A DNA stretch of 64,000 nt from Candidatus Tumulicola sp. (GTDB lineage Bacteria; Vulcanimicrobiota; Vulcanimicrobiia; Eremiobacterales; Eremiobacteraceae). A program made the translations under genes and the position numbers. The stretch covers positions 124,001-188,000 of the forward strand of contig DATNNM010000012.1 of assembly GCA_035601835.1 (NCBI GenBank), read 5' to 3'. Positions 41,008 through 52,609 of this stretch are shown here, piece after piece. The notes below the pieces were generated by a model. It made no database searches, was not told the origin of the DNA, and saw only the letters and a list, made by a program, of their open reading frames with translations. Position 1 is the first letter of the stretch; every line of letters begins with the position of its first letter.

Positions 41008-41141
41008 CGGTCAGATCGTATACGTCCGAAGCCGGTGGTTGAAGTAGGGCCTTCAGCGACGAGCGATGTTCGAGATGCCGGAGTGAAGGCTTGTATCGCG
41101 CCAAAATGGCGGGGGCGACAAACTGCCCTTGCAACACGCGA

Positions 41142-41169
41142 ATTATATCACGGCAAATGCCCGTGTCAC
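41142..41169 (-). promoter_or_regulatory. promoter for the G5/3D gene
   Basis: On the minus strand GTGACA (41169-41164), a 16-base spacer and TATAAT (41147-41142) sit 135 bases upstream of the start. The spacer holds a palindromic CGGGCATTTGCCG, a possible operator. The 270-base gap to the divergent glycosyltransferase carries no gene. Confidence 0.65.
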
Positions 41170-41278
41170 AAGGGATTCCCGCTGTGCGGACCCAACGGTC
41201 CCGCTGAAGGATTCGTGGTTCAGTCACAGGAACGCGAGCGCCCGCATCGTTCCGGAGTACGAGAAGCTCAAGCTAATC

Positions 41279-42514
41279 ATGAAAATCGGCATCTTCACCG
41301 AAGTGTACCGCCCGATCGTCAACGGCGTGGTCACCTCCGTCGAATCGCTCGGCGAAGAGCTGCGTGCGCTCGGTCACGAGGCCTATACTTTCGCGCCGCG
41401 CATTCCGAATGGCGCGGAGACGACAGGCCGCGTCTTTTTCATGCCGTCGTTGCCGCTGCCCGCGCGCACGGAATATCGATTGACGTTACCGCTGGTCGCG
41501 CGGCGCAACAAGATCCGTTTTCTGAGCCAGTGCGATGTCATTCACAGTCATTCGCTTTTCATCACGGGATGGATGGCCTCGTATTATGCGCGACGTCGCT
41601 TTCGCGTGCCGCTGGTTTTCACGTATCACACATTGTTGGAAAGCTACGCGCACTACTCGCCGCTCGGGCGGCGGCTCACCGCGCAACTAACCCGAGAGCT
41701 GACCCGGACTTATGCTAACGCCGCCGATGCCGTCATCGTGCCCACCCGGGCGGTGGCGGCCCAACTCCGGGAACGAGGCGTAGTGGCCCCGATTTCCGTG
41801 ATTCCCACGGGGATCAACATCGAGTTGTTCCGCGGTGCGGGAGCGGTCGAGGCAAAGTCCGTTCGGCAGCGCTTCGGCATCCCGGTGGACGCGCCGCTGG
41901 TGCTGTTGGTCTCGCGCATGGCCCAGGAGAAGAACATCCCCTTCGCGCTGTCGGCCTTCGCGCGCTTGCGGCAGGCGCTCCCAGAGGCGCGCCTGCTGCT
42001 CGTTGGCTCAGGCCCGTTGGCGGAAGCCCTGAAGGCCCAAACGCGCACGGACGGACTTGCGGGATCGGTCATTTTCGCGGGCAGCGTACCCAACGCGGAG
42101 CTGCCTGGATTCTACGCTGCAGCCGACGCGTTTGCGTTCCCCTCGATCACCGAGACCCAGGGGCTGGTCCTCGCCGAAGCCTTTGCAGCCGGCGTGCCCG
42201 TGATCGCCGTGGACACGCCGCAAACGCGCGATGTCTTTGGGGCGAATATCGCTGGAGAGTTGGTCGAAGATCCCGAGGCGATGGCCAACGGGCTGCTCGG
42301 CCTGCTGACGGATCCGGAGAAAAGGGCCGTGGCCTCCGCCCACGCGCTGACCGCTGCTGCCGCATTCGATGCTAAAGCAAACGCCGGGCGAGTGGTCGCC
42401 GTGTACGAGGCGGTCATGGCGAACAAAGCGGGAACGGCCGAAATGGCCGACTTCGAGGCCCTTTTCGACCCCATAGACGCCGCCGTCCCGAAAGACAAAC
42501 CAGCCGAGATGTAA
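41279..42514 (+). CDS. family 4 glycosyltransferase (glycolipid/mannosyl type)
   Basis: The 411-residue protein starts KIGIFTEVYRPIVNGVVTSVES, a hallmark of MgtA/GtfA-like GT4 enzymes, and continues with DVIHSHSLFITGW, VFTYHTLLESYAHYSP, VIPTGINIELF, LLVSRMAQEKNIPFALSAF, PSITETQGLVLAEAFAAGVPVIA and DTPQTRDVF. Such enzymes transfer glucose or mannose to diacylglycerol or phosphatidylinositol; the acceptor here is uncertain. The ATG at 41279 was preferred over longer frames because homologues begin there. No clear ribosome site is seen. Confidence 0.9.
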   Translation: MKIGIFTEVYRPIVNGVVTSVESLGEELRALGHEAYTFAPRIPNGAETTGRVFFMPSLPLPARTEYRLTLPLVARRNKIRFLSQCDVIHSHSLFITGWMASYYARRRFRVPLVFTYHTLLESYAHYSPLGRRLTAQLTRELTRTYANAADAVIVPTRAVAAQLRERGVVAPISVIPTGINIELFRGAGAVEAKSVRQRFGIPVDAPLVLLVSRMAQEKNIPFALSAFARLRQALPEARLLLVGSGPLAEALKAQTRTDGLAGSVIFAGSVPNAELPGFYAAADAFAFPSITETQGLVLAEAFAAGVPVIAVDTPQTRDVFGANIAGELVEDPEAMANGLLGLLTDPEKRAVASAHALTAAAAFDAKANAGRVVAVYEAVMANKAGTAEMADFEALFDPIDAAVPKDKPAEM

Positions 42515-42548: not shown

Positions 42549-42577
42549 TTGACAATCGAACACTCGTTCGATTAAAA
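42549..42577 (+). promoter_or_regulatory. promoter of the RNase H-like gene
   Basis: TTGACA (42549-42554) is a perfect -35 box; 17 bases later TTAAAA (42572-42577) is a plausible -10. The start codon follows at 42588, so the transcript has a very short leader or the -10 lies slightly elsewhere. A LexA-like palindrome fills the spacer. Confidence 0.65.
42554..42573. promoter_or_regulatory. LexA (SOS) operator, GAAC-N4-GTTC type
   Basis: AATCGAAC-ACTC-GTTCGATT is a perfect 8-bp inverted repeat. TCGAAC-N4-GTTCGA is the published mycobacterial/Gram-positive SOS-box consensus. It lies between the -35 and -10 boxes, the usual position for repression. Confidence 0.75.
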
Positions 42578-42587
42578 TTGAACCACG

Positions 42588-43073
42588 ATGATGGCCCCAA
42601 CGCTCCTCCCCCAAATGACCCCCCAAACGGGCCGCAGATCGGCCCCCGCCGGCGCGCGCAGCGACTGCCAAGCCTACATCGCCGTGGTCCGTTGCGGAGC
42701 GGGCCGCGGCATAGCCGCGGTGGCGCTGCTCGACCGCGCGGGGGACGGCACGGGAGAGCACTTCATCCCCTTCTCCGTGAGAGAGCAGCCGTCGCAACAA
42801 GGAAGAGACTACATCTACGCTGGTTTGATCGCTGCGCTGGATCGGCTGCGAAGTCTTGGCATCCGCCGGTTAGCGGTTCACGTCGACGACGCGCAACTGG
42901 TCGCGGAACTCGAACAAAAAACGCAGCCGCACCGTGAGCTCACGCTAGCGTACATCCTGCTCGGCTGCAAACTCAACGAGTTCGCAAGCGCAAAGGTCGT
43001 GCTGGAAAGACCGGAACGGCTCGCGGCGCTGCGCGCCAAGACGGACAGCCTCGCCGCCCCCCTCGCGATGTAA
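42588..43073 (+). CDS. putative RNase H-like fold protein
   Basis: The 161-residue protein has the strand/helix pattern of RNase H (RVT_3) domains: AYIAVVRCGAGRGIAAVALLD, GRDYIYAGLIAALDRLRSLGIRRLAVHVDDAQLVAELEQK, then a C-terminal helix. In the RNase HI consensus the first Asp (DGA) is replaced by V and the E of AEY by D, while the third acidic position (DD) is kept. The active site therefore looks degenerate. A LexA-like box in its promoter suggests DNA-damage induction. The call is tentative. The gene is followed by two palindromes with a T-run. Confidence 0.5.
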   Translation: MMAPTLLPQMTPQTGRRSAPAGARSDCQAYIAVVRCGAGRGIAAVALLDRAGDGTGEHFIPFSVREQPSQQGRDYIYAGLIAALDRLRSLGIRRLAVHVDDAQLVAELEQKTQPHRELTLAYILLGCKLNEFASAKVVLERPERLAALRAKTDSLAAPLAM

Positions 43074-43112: not shown

Positions 43113-43136
43113 GTAGTGCCGGGGCTTTAGCCCCGG
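43113..43136 (+). repeat. palindromic element, class A
   Basis: GTAGTG then CCGGGGCTTTAGCCCCGG (43119-43136), the same sequence as the copy at 2929. It is directly downstream of a class B element, and six Ts follow. Confidence 0.9.
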
Positions 43137-43142
43137 TTTTTT
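43119..43142 (+). terminator. intrinsic terminator built from the class A palindrome
   Basis: The perfect 7-bp CCGGGGC/GCCCCGG stem is followed by six Ts (43137-43142). It would stop transcription of the RNase H-like gene. Confidence 0.7.
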
Positions 43143-48907: not shown

Positions 48908-49951
48908 TCAGGGAGCATCGTCAAAAGCGATGCTTCCCAAAGGGGGCGGTGATGAGCCGGAAACGGGCAGAGGGACGAATCTGGGACATTCAGTTTGCCC
49001 ACAGGAGATGGCAACGGTGACCTGCCCGCCGGAGCCGTTTGCGTATGTGTACGTTCCGCTTGAAAGCGTTGCGAAATCGCTTGCGAGGGCAAGCCAATCC
49101 AACTCTTCGCCAGGTCCTATCCATTGCGCTACACCCGCCACTGAGCCAAAATGAATAGTACTTGCGCCCCCATCCGGAAGCTGAACTCCCGGATCGGCGA
49201 AATGCCAGGGCCCATGCGGCGGATGAATAAGCGATCCGTGTATTATGTTGATGACGAACGGGATGGTCCGCACGCCGACCGGCGGCGGCGGCAGCGGCTG
49301 AGCGGGTACGAGTACCGCCAACGACGTCGGCGCGATGCGCGGCGCAAGGTGCAGCGTGATACTGCGACCGGGTGCACCGCCGATAGCTTGGCTTCGCAGC
49401 GACACCGACACGATGTCGTTGCCCCCGATCACATCCTGCGCGCCGTACATGACAGAAACCCGTGAAACGCTCCCGCCGCCGACCACGTCCGCGAGACCGC
49501 TGGTCGTAGTGCGCTGAGCGGCAAGAGCGGCAATGCCTGAGGCCACGACGTCGGCGTGAACGATGGCCGGCACGCCCGCGGCGCGCGAATACTCGTAACG
49601 CGTTACCGTTCCGGCGTGGCTGTCGAAACAGTAGGCGACGTAGGCGTCACCGCCCGCGGAGAGCCGGCGGTAGAAATCGATTTCGTGCGCCCCACCACTC
49701 TCGGCGTCGTTCGATCCGCCGAGCACGTCCACACTCGGTAGGAATACGGCCGTCGAACTGCGCGCTTCTTCCGATAAGCGCGCGGTCAACTCGGAAAACG
49801 AACGCACACCGGCAGCACGACCGGCGTCTACCGACTCCATGCGGACGGCATGCGCGATCGCGTCGCCCACGGCGAAGATAAGGACGAGCAAAACCATCAT
49901 CGCGACGAGGACTTCGACCAGCGTGTAGCCGCGAGAGGACAACCAGCGCAT
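48908..49951 (-). CDS. prepilin-type protein (PilW/PulJ-like)
   Basis: The 347-residue product opens with a type IV prepilin motif: RGYTLVEVLVAMMVLLVLIF, with the cleavage site G8-Y9 and Glu at +5. A long beta-rich globular domain follows. It resembles minor pilins such as PilW. Only pilT is another pilus gene in this window. Its start overlaps that of the divergent DNA glycosylase gene by 2 bases. The 184 bases between its end and the receptor start hold only a GC palindrome. Confidence 0.85.
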   Translation of the reverse strand: MRWLSSRGYTLVEVLVAMMVLLVLIFAVGDAIAHAVRMESVDAGRAAGVRSFSELTARLSEEARSSTAVFLPSVDVLGGSNDAESGGAHEIDFYRRLSAGGDAYVAYCFDSHAGTVTRYEYSRAAGVPAIVHADVVASGIAALAAQRTTTSGLADVVGGGSVSRVSVMYGAQDVIGGNDIVSVSLRSQAIGGAPGRSITLHLAPRIAPTSLAVLVPAQPLPPPPVGVRTIPFVINIIHGSLIHPPHGPWHFADPGVQLPDGGASTIHFGSVAGVAQWIGPGEELDWLALASDFATLSSGTYTYANGSGGQVTVAISCGQTECPRFVPLPVSGSSPPPLGSIAFDDAP

Positions 49952-50609
49952 GTTCTCCCATCATCACGCAACGATGGCACCCGGTCAAGCCCCAAACAAA
50001 CGTGCCCGGAAGACGACCGCAGCTCTTTTCAAAGGCCACACTATAGATGTAGCGCGGCGACTCATCGGAGCGACGCTCGAGCGCCGCATTCCGCGCGGCG
50101 AGCCCGATGCGGGCACCCTGGTGCGCGGTCGAATCGTGGAGACCGAAGCGTATCTGCCGCTGGTCGACCCCTCATGCCACGCCTACCGCGGTCGCACCAA
50201 ACGCAACGCGGTCATGTTCGGCGATCCGGGCCGCGCCTATGTCTACTTCATATATGGTAGCCACTATTGCCTCAACGTGACCACGGAACGCCCGGGCACC
50301 GGCGCCGCGGTCCTCATCCGCGCGGTAGAACCGATTGCCGGCGTTGCGGCAATGCGCCGCCGCCGCCTCGCGGGCGTGCCAGACCATAGACTTGCAAGCG
50401 GCCCCGGCAATCTGTGCCGCGCTTTTTCCATCGATCGGCGCTGCGACGGCAAGGACCTGCGCTCCGGAGAGATGCGTATCATCGCTGCATCGAAGCAACG
50501 CCCAATCGTCAAAGCGGCCAAGCGCGTTGGTCTATCGGTCGCACAGGACTGGCCGCTGCGCTTCTACGATGCAGGCAGCCGTAGCGTATCCAAAACACCC
50601 GCTCCGTAA
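49950..50609 (+). CDS. DNA-3-methyladenine glycosylase (AAG/MPG family)
   Basis: The 219-residue product has the AAG fold motifs: RRLIGATLERRI, GRIVETEAYLPLVDPSCHAYRG with catalytic Glu, AYVYFIYGSHYCLNVTT, GAAVLIRAVEPI and SGPGNLCRAFSID. It removes alkylated purines in base excision repair. The ATG at 49950 has GAGAGGA upstream; 49974 is an alternative ATG. Confidence 0.93.
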   Translation: MFSHHHATMAPGQAPNKRARKTTAALFKGHTIDVARRLIGATLERRIPRGEPDAGTLVRGRIVETEAYLPLVDPSCHAYRGRTKRNAVMFGDPGRAYVYFIYGSHYCLNVTTERPGTGAAVLIRAVEPIAGVAAMRRRRLAGVPDHRLASGPGNLCRAFSIDRRCDGKDLRSGEMRIIAASKQRPIVKAAKRVGLSVAQDWPLRFYDAGSRSVSKTPAP

Positions 50610-50857: not shown

Positions 50858-52609
50858 GTGGAAGAAGAAAACGATCCTCAATCACCTTTAGAAGAATCCT
50901 CGGAAGCTCCGCCCAGACCTCCCACATACCGAACCCGCAACCGCGTCCCTCGACCGATGGAAATCGACGTCGATGTGGAGCGTCCGGCTCGCGTCGAGCG
51001 GCCCGAGCGCGCGGAGCGCCCCGAGCGCGTAGACCGAGCGGATCGGGGAGAACGCGCGGAGCGCCCGGATCGCGTGGACCGCAGCATAGAGCGCGCGGAT
51101 CGCCCGGAACGCGGCGAACGTATGGAGCGCGGTGAGCGCCCAGAACGCCCGGATCGAGGCGAACGGTCCGAACGCTACGACCGCCCCGAGCGGTCCGAGC
51201 GCGGCGGAAGATACGATCGCGGGCGGCCGGATCGCGCCGGGCAACGCGTGTATCAGATGCGCCCGTATCAAGAACGCATCGAACCGCCGCAGCCGAAGAC
51301 GTACGAGACCAAAGACGGCACGGTCATGAACATCCTGAACATCAAAGAGCTGGAAGAAAAAACGCGCACCGAACTCATCGAGCTCGCAAAAACGCTTGAA
51401 ATCCCCGACCTGCAACGCATCAAGAAACAAGATCTTGTTTTCCCGATCCTCGAAGCGCAAGCAAAAGCCGCCGGTCTGAACTTTGCGACCGGTGTGCTCG
51501 AGATATTGCCCGAGGGTTATGGTTTTCTGCGGCGTGAGAACATGCGGCCCGGCCCGCACGATGTCTACATCTCGCAATCGCAGGTCCGGCGCTTCGAACT
51601 GCGCACCGGCGATCAAATCGCGGGGCTGATCCGCGATCCCAAAGACAACGAGAAGTATCACGGCATCCTCAAAGTAGAAGCGGTCAACGGCCAAGACCCG
51701 GAGGCGATCCGCGGCCGCGCGGTATTCGACAAACTCGTCCCGGTCTATCCCGACCAGCGCCTAAAAATGGAGACCTCGTCGCTCGAGATGAGCGGCCGCG
51801 TTTTCGATCTGCTTTGTCCGATCGGCAAGGGCCAGCGCGGTCTCATCGTGTCGCCGCCCAAAGCCGGCAAGACCACGATGTTGAAGAAGATCGCCAACGC
51901 CATCGCAGCCAATCATCCGGAAGTGGATCTCTTCGCGCTGCTCGTCGACGAGCGCCCCGAAGAAGTCACCGATATGCGCCGCTCGATCGAGGGCGAAGTC
52001 GTCTCGTCGACCTTTGACGAGCACCCGGACAACCACACGGCGGTCGCCGAGCTCACCCTTGAGCGCTGCAAGCGACTCGTGGAACTCGGTCACGACGTCG
52101 TCATCTTGCTCGACTCCATCACGCGCCTCGCGCGCGCCTGGAACCAAGTCATGCCGACGACCGGGCGAACGCTCTCGGGCGGCCTCGACACGAGCGCGCT
52201 GCACAAACCCAAGCGCTTCTTCGGCGCAGCGCGCAATATCGAGAACGGCGGCAGTCTGACGATCATCGCCACGGCGCTGATCGAGACGGGCTCGAAGATG
52301 GACGACGTCATTTTCGAAGAGTTCAAAGGCACCGGCAACATGGAGATCAACCTGGTGCGCAAGCTTGCCGACAGCCGCATATTCCCGGCGGTCGACATCA
52401 AGCGTTCCGGCACGCGTCACGAAGAACTGCTGCTCAGCGAGATCGAGCTGCGCAAGATCGTGATGCTGCGCCGCGCCACGGCCGTGCTCGGCACGCAGGA
52501 GATGACCGAGTTGATCCTCGAGCGCTTCCGGCGCACCGACAGCAACGAAGAGTTCCTGAAGTCGGTCACCAAGGAAGCCATGTCCATCGCCGGAGACAGC
52601 GACCGCTAA
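50858..52609 (+). CDS. rho: transcription termination factor Rho with long disordered N-terminus
   Basis: The 583-residue protein is longer than the usual 420. Residues about 25-145 are extra: Pro-rich, then a polyampholyte of repeats such as ERPERVDR and DRGERAERP. The core follows: [16 protein letters not shown]-type N-domain ([13 protein letters not shown]), RNA-binding [19 protein letters not shown]-loop [28 protein letters not shown]. Rho is the RNA helicase of factor-dependent termination. GTG start at 50858. The downstream pseudouridine synthase follows 13 bases after its stop. Confidence 0.97.

Follow-up and report, generated by a model that had tools for sequence, protein, structure and literature searches.

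Background

The closest described counterpart of the locus reported here is the LexA/SOS regulon of the Bacillus type, and the SOS box of B. subtilis and S. aureus is CGAACN4GTTCG (PMC9578287 Table 1; PMC3091678). The regulon that we find is the same in its operator sequence, in the autoregulation of LexA and in the boxes at imuA and dnaE2. It differs in its host, which belongs to Candidatus Eremiobacterota, in that recA lies mostly outside the regulon, and in that a degenerate RNase H-like gene belongs to its core and is usually followed by a gene for a methylpurine-DNA glycosylase (MPG/AAG). The product of this gene shares the fold of RVT_3-type ribonuclease HI (Halobacterium 4e19, LC11 RNase H1, the Rv2228c domain), with the order bbb-a-b-a-a-b-a. 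Unlike these enzymes, it is without the active-site carboxylates, is 12-19% identical to the closest solved RNases H, has a clade-specific YVRLRCALN / LGCKLNEF motif and appears to be under LexA control.

ImuA is related to RecA: an enzyme fold that now serves as an accessory protein induced by the SOS response. By analogy with ImuA among the degenerate-enzyme SOS proteins (ImuA, ImuB, SulA), the RNase H-like protein may be another nucleic-acid enzyme fold that has become an SOS accessory, but ImuA and ImuB are of RecA or Y-polymerase ancestry, whereas the ancestry here is probably that of RNase H, and any partner would be putative. The SOS division inhibitors (SulA, YneA, SidA, SosA) are likewise small, lineage-specific and LexA-controlled with a strong promoter; the RNase H-like protein differs in having neither detected homology to them nor an apparent membrane segment, and in its link to a repair glycosylase.

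Results

The features of the locus in the window (the whole 64-kb stretch of DNA that was analysed) are as follows.

41129..42514, + strand: group-4 glycosyltransferase gene, with an unsettled start codon; it also precedes 84 of 90 ortholog loci and serves as a synteny marker
42549..42554, + strand: -35 element TTGACA, from the sequence; in 87 of 89 orthologs TTGA stands 6-9 bases upstream of the box core
42554..42573, no strand: LexA operator (SOS box) AATCGAAC-ACTC-GTTCGATT, with the core CGAACNNNNGTTCG at 42557-42570; kept in 89 of 89 ortholog promoters
42573..42578, + strand: -10 element TAAAAT, 18-bp spacer; class-wide the spacer is 17 (50) or 18 (36) bp
42588..43073, + strand: RNase H-like ORF of 161 aa, catalytically degenerate, from Pfam, profile, structure prediction and alignment
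43118..43137, + strand: intrinsic terminator GCCGGGGCTTTAGCCCCGGT + TTTTTC, from a terminator scan
49950..50609, + strand: methylpurine-DNA glycosylase gene; the next gene in 80 of 103 genomes, here about 7 kb away and with no box of its own
50858..52609, + strand: Rho-like gene, which follows MPG in most relatives; named by eye, from sequence

An earlier note on this DNA had described an 8-bp perfect inverted repeat with an ACTC centre, placed between TTGACA and the -10 element. Both particulars hold: the repeat can be read directly from the sequence at 42554-42573, and it occupies the -35/-10 spacer of a strong promoter, 15 bp upstream of the 161-aa ORF. The -10 element can be taken as TTAAAA at 42572, with a 17-bp spacer, or, better, as TAAAAT, with an 18-bp spacer, and TTGACA and TAAAAT together match 11 of 12 consensus bases. 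The start codon at 42588 lies near the expected transcription start, so that the mRNA is probably leaderless or nearly so, and the gene appears to be monocistronic in the window genome. In the window's family the SOS promoter of imuA is likewise so placed that transcription should begin almost at the start codon, and a leaderless mRNA is likely there too.

The sequence TCGAAC-N4-GTTCGA (42556-42571) has a single exact match in the window, against a composition-based expectation per 64 kb of 0.0023 for this 16-mer and 2e-6 for the 20-mer. In the whole genome there are 11 copies of the bare core CGAACNNNNGTTCG and 10 of its reversed control; because it is no commoner than the control, a lone site is weak evidence and a comparative test is needed. 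The centre of the window box, ACTC, also differs from the class preference RTRY, which counts against reading it as a LexA operator.

A profile of 11 family orthologs gave matches in 97 of 117 class genomes. With a class-wide profile, an ortholog of the RNase H-like gene was found in 105 of the 117, nearly always as one copy, and in none of 32 genomes from other classes of the phylum. A profile scan gave five loci, with Eremiobacterota or Eremiobacter in the title of four, and the named relatives are Candidatus Eremiobacterota MAGs; a plasmid tblastn and a single-protein scan of named genomes returned no relatives. One MAG titled 'Proteobacteria bacterium' (JAJPHJ010000065.1) carries this Eremiobacterota-specific gene, and its title is probably a misnomer.

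DNA was available for 90 ortholog loci, and 89 of these have readable upstream DNA (in one the contig ends first). CGAAC-N4-GTTCG is perfect in 88 of the 89 promoters and has one mismatch in the remaining one, while composition predicts 0.015 boxes in the same 13.3 kb of upstream DNA and the reversed control gives 0. The ten half-site positions are 98-100% identical, against at most 82% for any position beyond the box, and 86 of 87 promoters have a -35/-10 spacer of 17 or 18 bp. Across the class the protein itself has an identity of 24-56%. This invariance of the half-sites among orthologs indicates that the operator has been under strong selection while the protein diverged.

In the window genome (18 contigs, 2.57 Mb) there is one strong canonical LexA (PF01726, the HTH domain, E 2.7e-25; TIGR00498 above cut-off). 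Its alignment with solved LexA repressors covers most of the protein and includes the Ala-Gly cleavage site as well as the catalytic Ser and Lys residues. LexA was found in 106 of the 117 class genomes. The earlier note had called the site a LexA-type operator and had pointed to lexA and recA as places where the same site should be sought. At lexA it is present: the promoter in the window genome has two one-mismatch boxes, CGAACATGTGTTCT and CGAACAAACGTTTG, and all 30 class lexA promoters examined have 2-3 boxes, mostly with one mismatch, the multiplicity being expected from autoregulation. Together with the 89 ortholog promoters and the presence of LexA itself, the boxes at lexA and imuA support the note's assignment. 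The gene imuA, a RecA-like mutasome gene whose product matches Pfam RecA, has a perfect box at the same promoter position in the window genome, and a perfect box in 22 of 23 class genomes examined. Among sampled relatives, boxes also stand before dnaE2, nrdJ (class II ribonucleotide reductase), ku and genes for a DinG-like helicase and an AlkB-like oxygenase, these gene names coming partly from sequence inspection; the window genome itself has boxes near Ku and nrdJ as well.

At recA, a usual though not a universal target of LexA, the suggestion was not borne out. Within 400 bp of recA (in ftsY-recA-recX) there is no box in the window genome or in 24 of the 30 genomes examined. In the other six, from two genera, CGAACNNNNGTTCG occurs 139-186 bp upstream of the recA match. 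We considered whether these sites belong to tRNA T-arms and rejected this reading, as ARAGORN finds no tRNA there; the two genera may therefore have recA under LexA, and the regulon may have gained or lost recA during the evolution of the class.

The earlier note had called the downstream gene RNase H-like and degenerate, and both words stand. The window protein matches Pfam RVT_3 with E 6e-5, just above the curated cut-off, and AlphaFold predicts an RNase H fold for it (pLDDT 82) and for a distant ortholog (pLDDT 96, 58 sequences). The best Foldseek matches in the PDB are RNase H1 enzymes (4e19, E 2.5e-8, TM 0.72-0.76). At the level of sequence, a match to an RNase H profile is obtained for only 4 of 58 class members, NCBIfam matches are not consistent, PHROGs and NCBIfam together return nothing consistent for the family, no Pfam match beyond RVT_3 is found for the window protein or family, and a PDB sequence search gave weak matches only. 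The comparison of the family with the genome's own RNase HI by hhalign is also weak (E 0.022, probability 2%), so that kinship with RNase HI rests on the Pfam match of the window protein and on the fold comparison. On these, descent from RNase HI is likely.

When 89 orthologs are aligned with the genome's RNase HI, the catalytic D10 is Asp in none, E48 is Glu in none, D70 is Asp in 33 and D134 is Asp in 16 (the C-terminal alignment being uncertain), and no ortholog has the full D-E-D-D carboxylate set. An HMM alignment to Halobacterium RNase H1 (4e19) agrees on the loss of E48. D77 is the only near-invariant carboxylate; M1, G16, G18, F38, Y53, A54, L94, Y98, C103, L105, N106, R126 and A127 are also invariant or nearly so. 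The alignments give good support to a loss of RNase H catalysis. A separate, intact, canonical RNase HI is encoded elsewhere in the window genome, which implies that the RNase H-like protein is not the cell's RNase HI.

In those 80 of 103 genomes MPG comes next after the RNase H-like gene, in the same orientation, with a 4-bp overlap in several. The order glycosyltransferase (GT4), RNase H-like gene, MPG, Rho is kept in the window, and the block is split in the window's family; the N-terminal fragment of the Rho-like protein has no Pfam match. Eight genomes without MPG still keep the RNase H-like gene, so that the glycosylase is not an obligate partner, and throughout the class it is the RNase H-like gene that carries the box, which would make this gene the constant LexA target. 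From gene order, the RNase H-like gene looks usually to be the first in a LexA-controlled repair operon with MPG.

Discussion

On comparative evidence, the site is a LexA operator. From the conserved operator we consider it nearly certain that the RNase H-like gene would be repressed by LexA and induced by damage. In the proposed mechanism, LexA bound in the promoter spacer would block RNA polymerase, and upon DNA damage RecA-ssDNA would trigger the self-cleavage of LexA, after which the RNase H-like gene would be strongly transcribed. The product, an RNase HI fold that has lost its catalytic carboxylates, should for this reason not cut RNA:DNA hybrids, and would instead be an accessory factor binding nucleic acid or a repair or replication protein. 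We infer from this a probable role in damage tolerance or repair, as a factor that binds nucleic acid or protein and has no catalytic activity. The statement as a whole, a functional LexA operator together with a non-catalytic accessory repair or tolerance factor, is in our judgement likely, and its regulatory half alone would be placed higher.

In E. coli, LexA binds more tightly to boxes nearer to the consensus, and their derepression comes later (PMC9578287). The window box is better than the lexA boxes, from which a late, tightly held SOS gene would follow by analogy; the perfect box and the near-consensus promoter suggest a product that is tightly repressed, late and abundant.

The main rival to the accessory factor is an SOS checkpoint effector built on a dead RNase H fold, i.e. 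an inhibitor of division or replication like SulA, YneA, SidA and SosA and unrelated to them. SOS inhibitors vary from lineage to lineage (PMC9578287), and a perfect box, a near-consensus promoter, a short or absent leader, rapid divergence (24-56% identity) and restriction to one clade (0 of 32 genomes of other classes) would all suit such a protein, as would the fact that the sampled regulon includes no known division inhibitor. The gene usually stands directly before a DNA repair glycosylase gene, however, and its product has no apparent membrane segment, unlike YneA, SidA and SosA, no Pfam match other than RVT_3, and no Pfam or NCBIfam match to SulA, YneA, SidA or SosA; we regard a checkpoint role as rather unlikely, at perhaps one chance among several. 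Nucleases of the RNase H superfamily are widespread in repair, and the protein could still be one of them, with rearranged residues, and process intermediates of damage alongside the glycosylase. Outside the window's family, most members do have an Asp where the first strand ends and another near D70. Against this, the window's own family has no first-strand Asp, Glu occupies the Glu position in 0 of 89, and D77 alone is a near-invariant carboxylate, which leaves a surviving nuclease improbable.

The operator itself could also be doubted. A single CGAACNNNNGTTCG is no commoner genome-wide than its control and palindromes can be hairpins, so the palindrome might be the operator of another repressor, a chance palindrome or a terminator hairpin, with no tie to LexA. 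The terminator reading was rejected, as no T-run follows the hairpin and the terminator scan makes no call there; the same motif occurs at lexA (30/30) and imuA (22/23) in the class and is kept inside the promoter in 89 of 89 orthologs, and we give a palindrome without LexA hardly any weight.

We lean, by a little, towards a bolder reading: the protein would be a core, class-wide SOS effector of an undescribed kind, a dead RNase H fold acting on R-loops, on stalled forks or on a cell-cycle or replication protein, and induced in most of the class from one operon with MPG.

The SOS regulon itself is conventional and its RNase H-like member is new. The earlier note had held that such a protein under DNA-damage control would be new, and this agrees with the literature searched, in which, among papers that need no subscription, we found no paper joining LexA with Eremiobacterota and none on an SOS-controlled inactive RNase H. 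An unannotated protein family is thereby added to the SOS core of a largely uncultured and poorly known soil phylum, on the basis of an operator kept across about 45 genera and not of one site. SOS control of a methylpurine-DNA glycosylase operon is also indicated. The family would be a clean case of an RNase H fold trading catalysis for a damage-induced role, and it may bear on the handling of RNA:DNA hybrids or on the cell-cycle stop after damage.

Other observations on the regulon

Upstream of Ku genes, a perfect CGAAC-N4-GTTCG is found at 66-77 bp in two genera, which suggests that end joining is under LexA control in this group. LexA-type boxes precede the class II (B12-dependent) nrdJ in three class genomes. 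In one class genome CGAACGTATGTTCG lies 69 bp before mraZ, the gene that normally opens the division cluster, and this may reflect a link between the SOS response and cell division.
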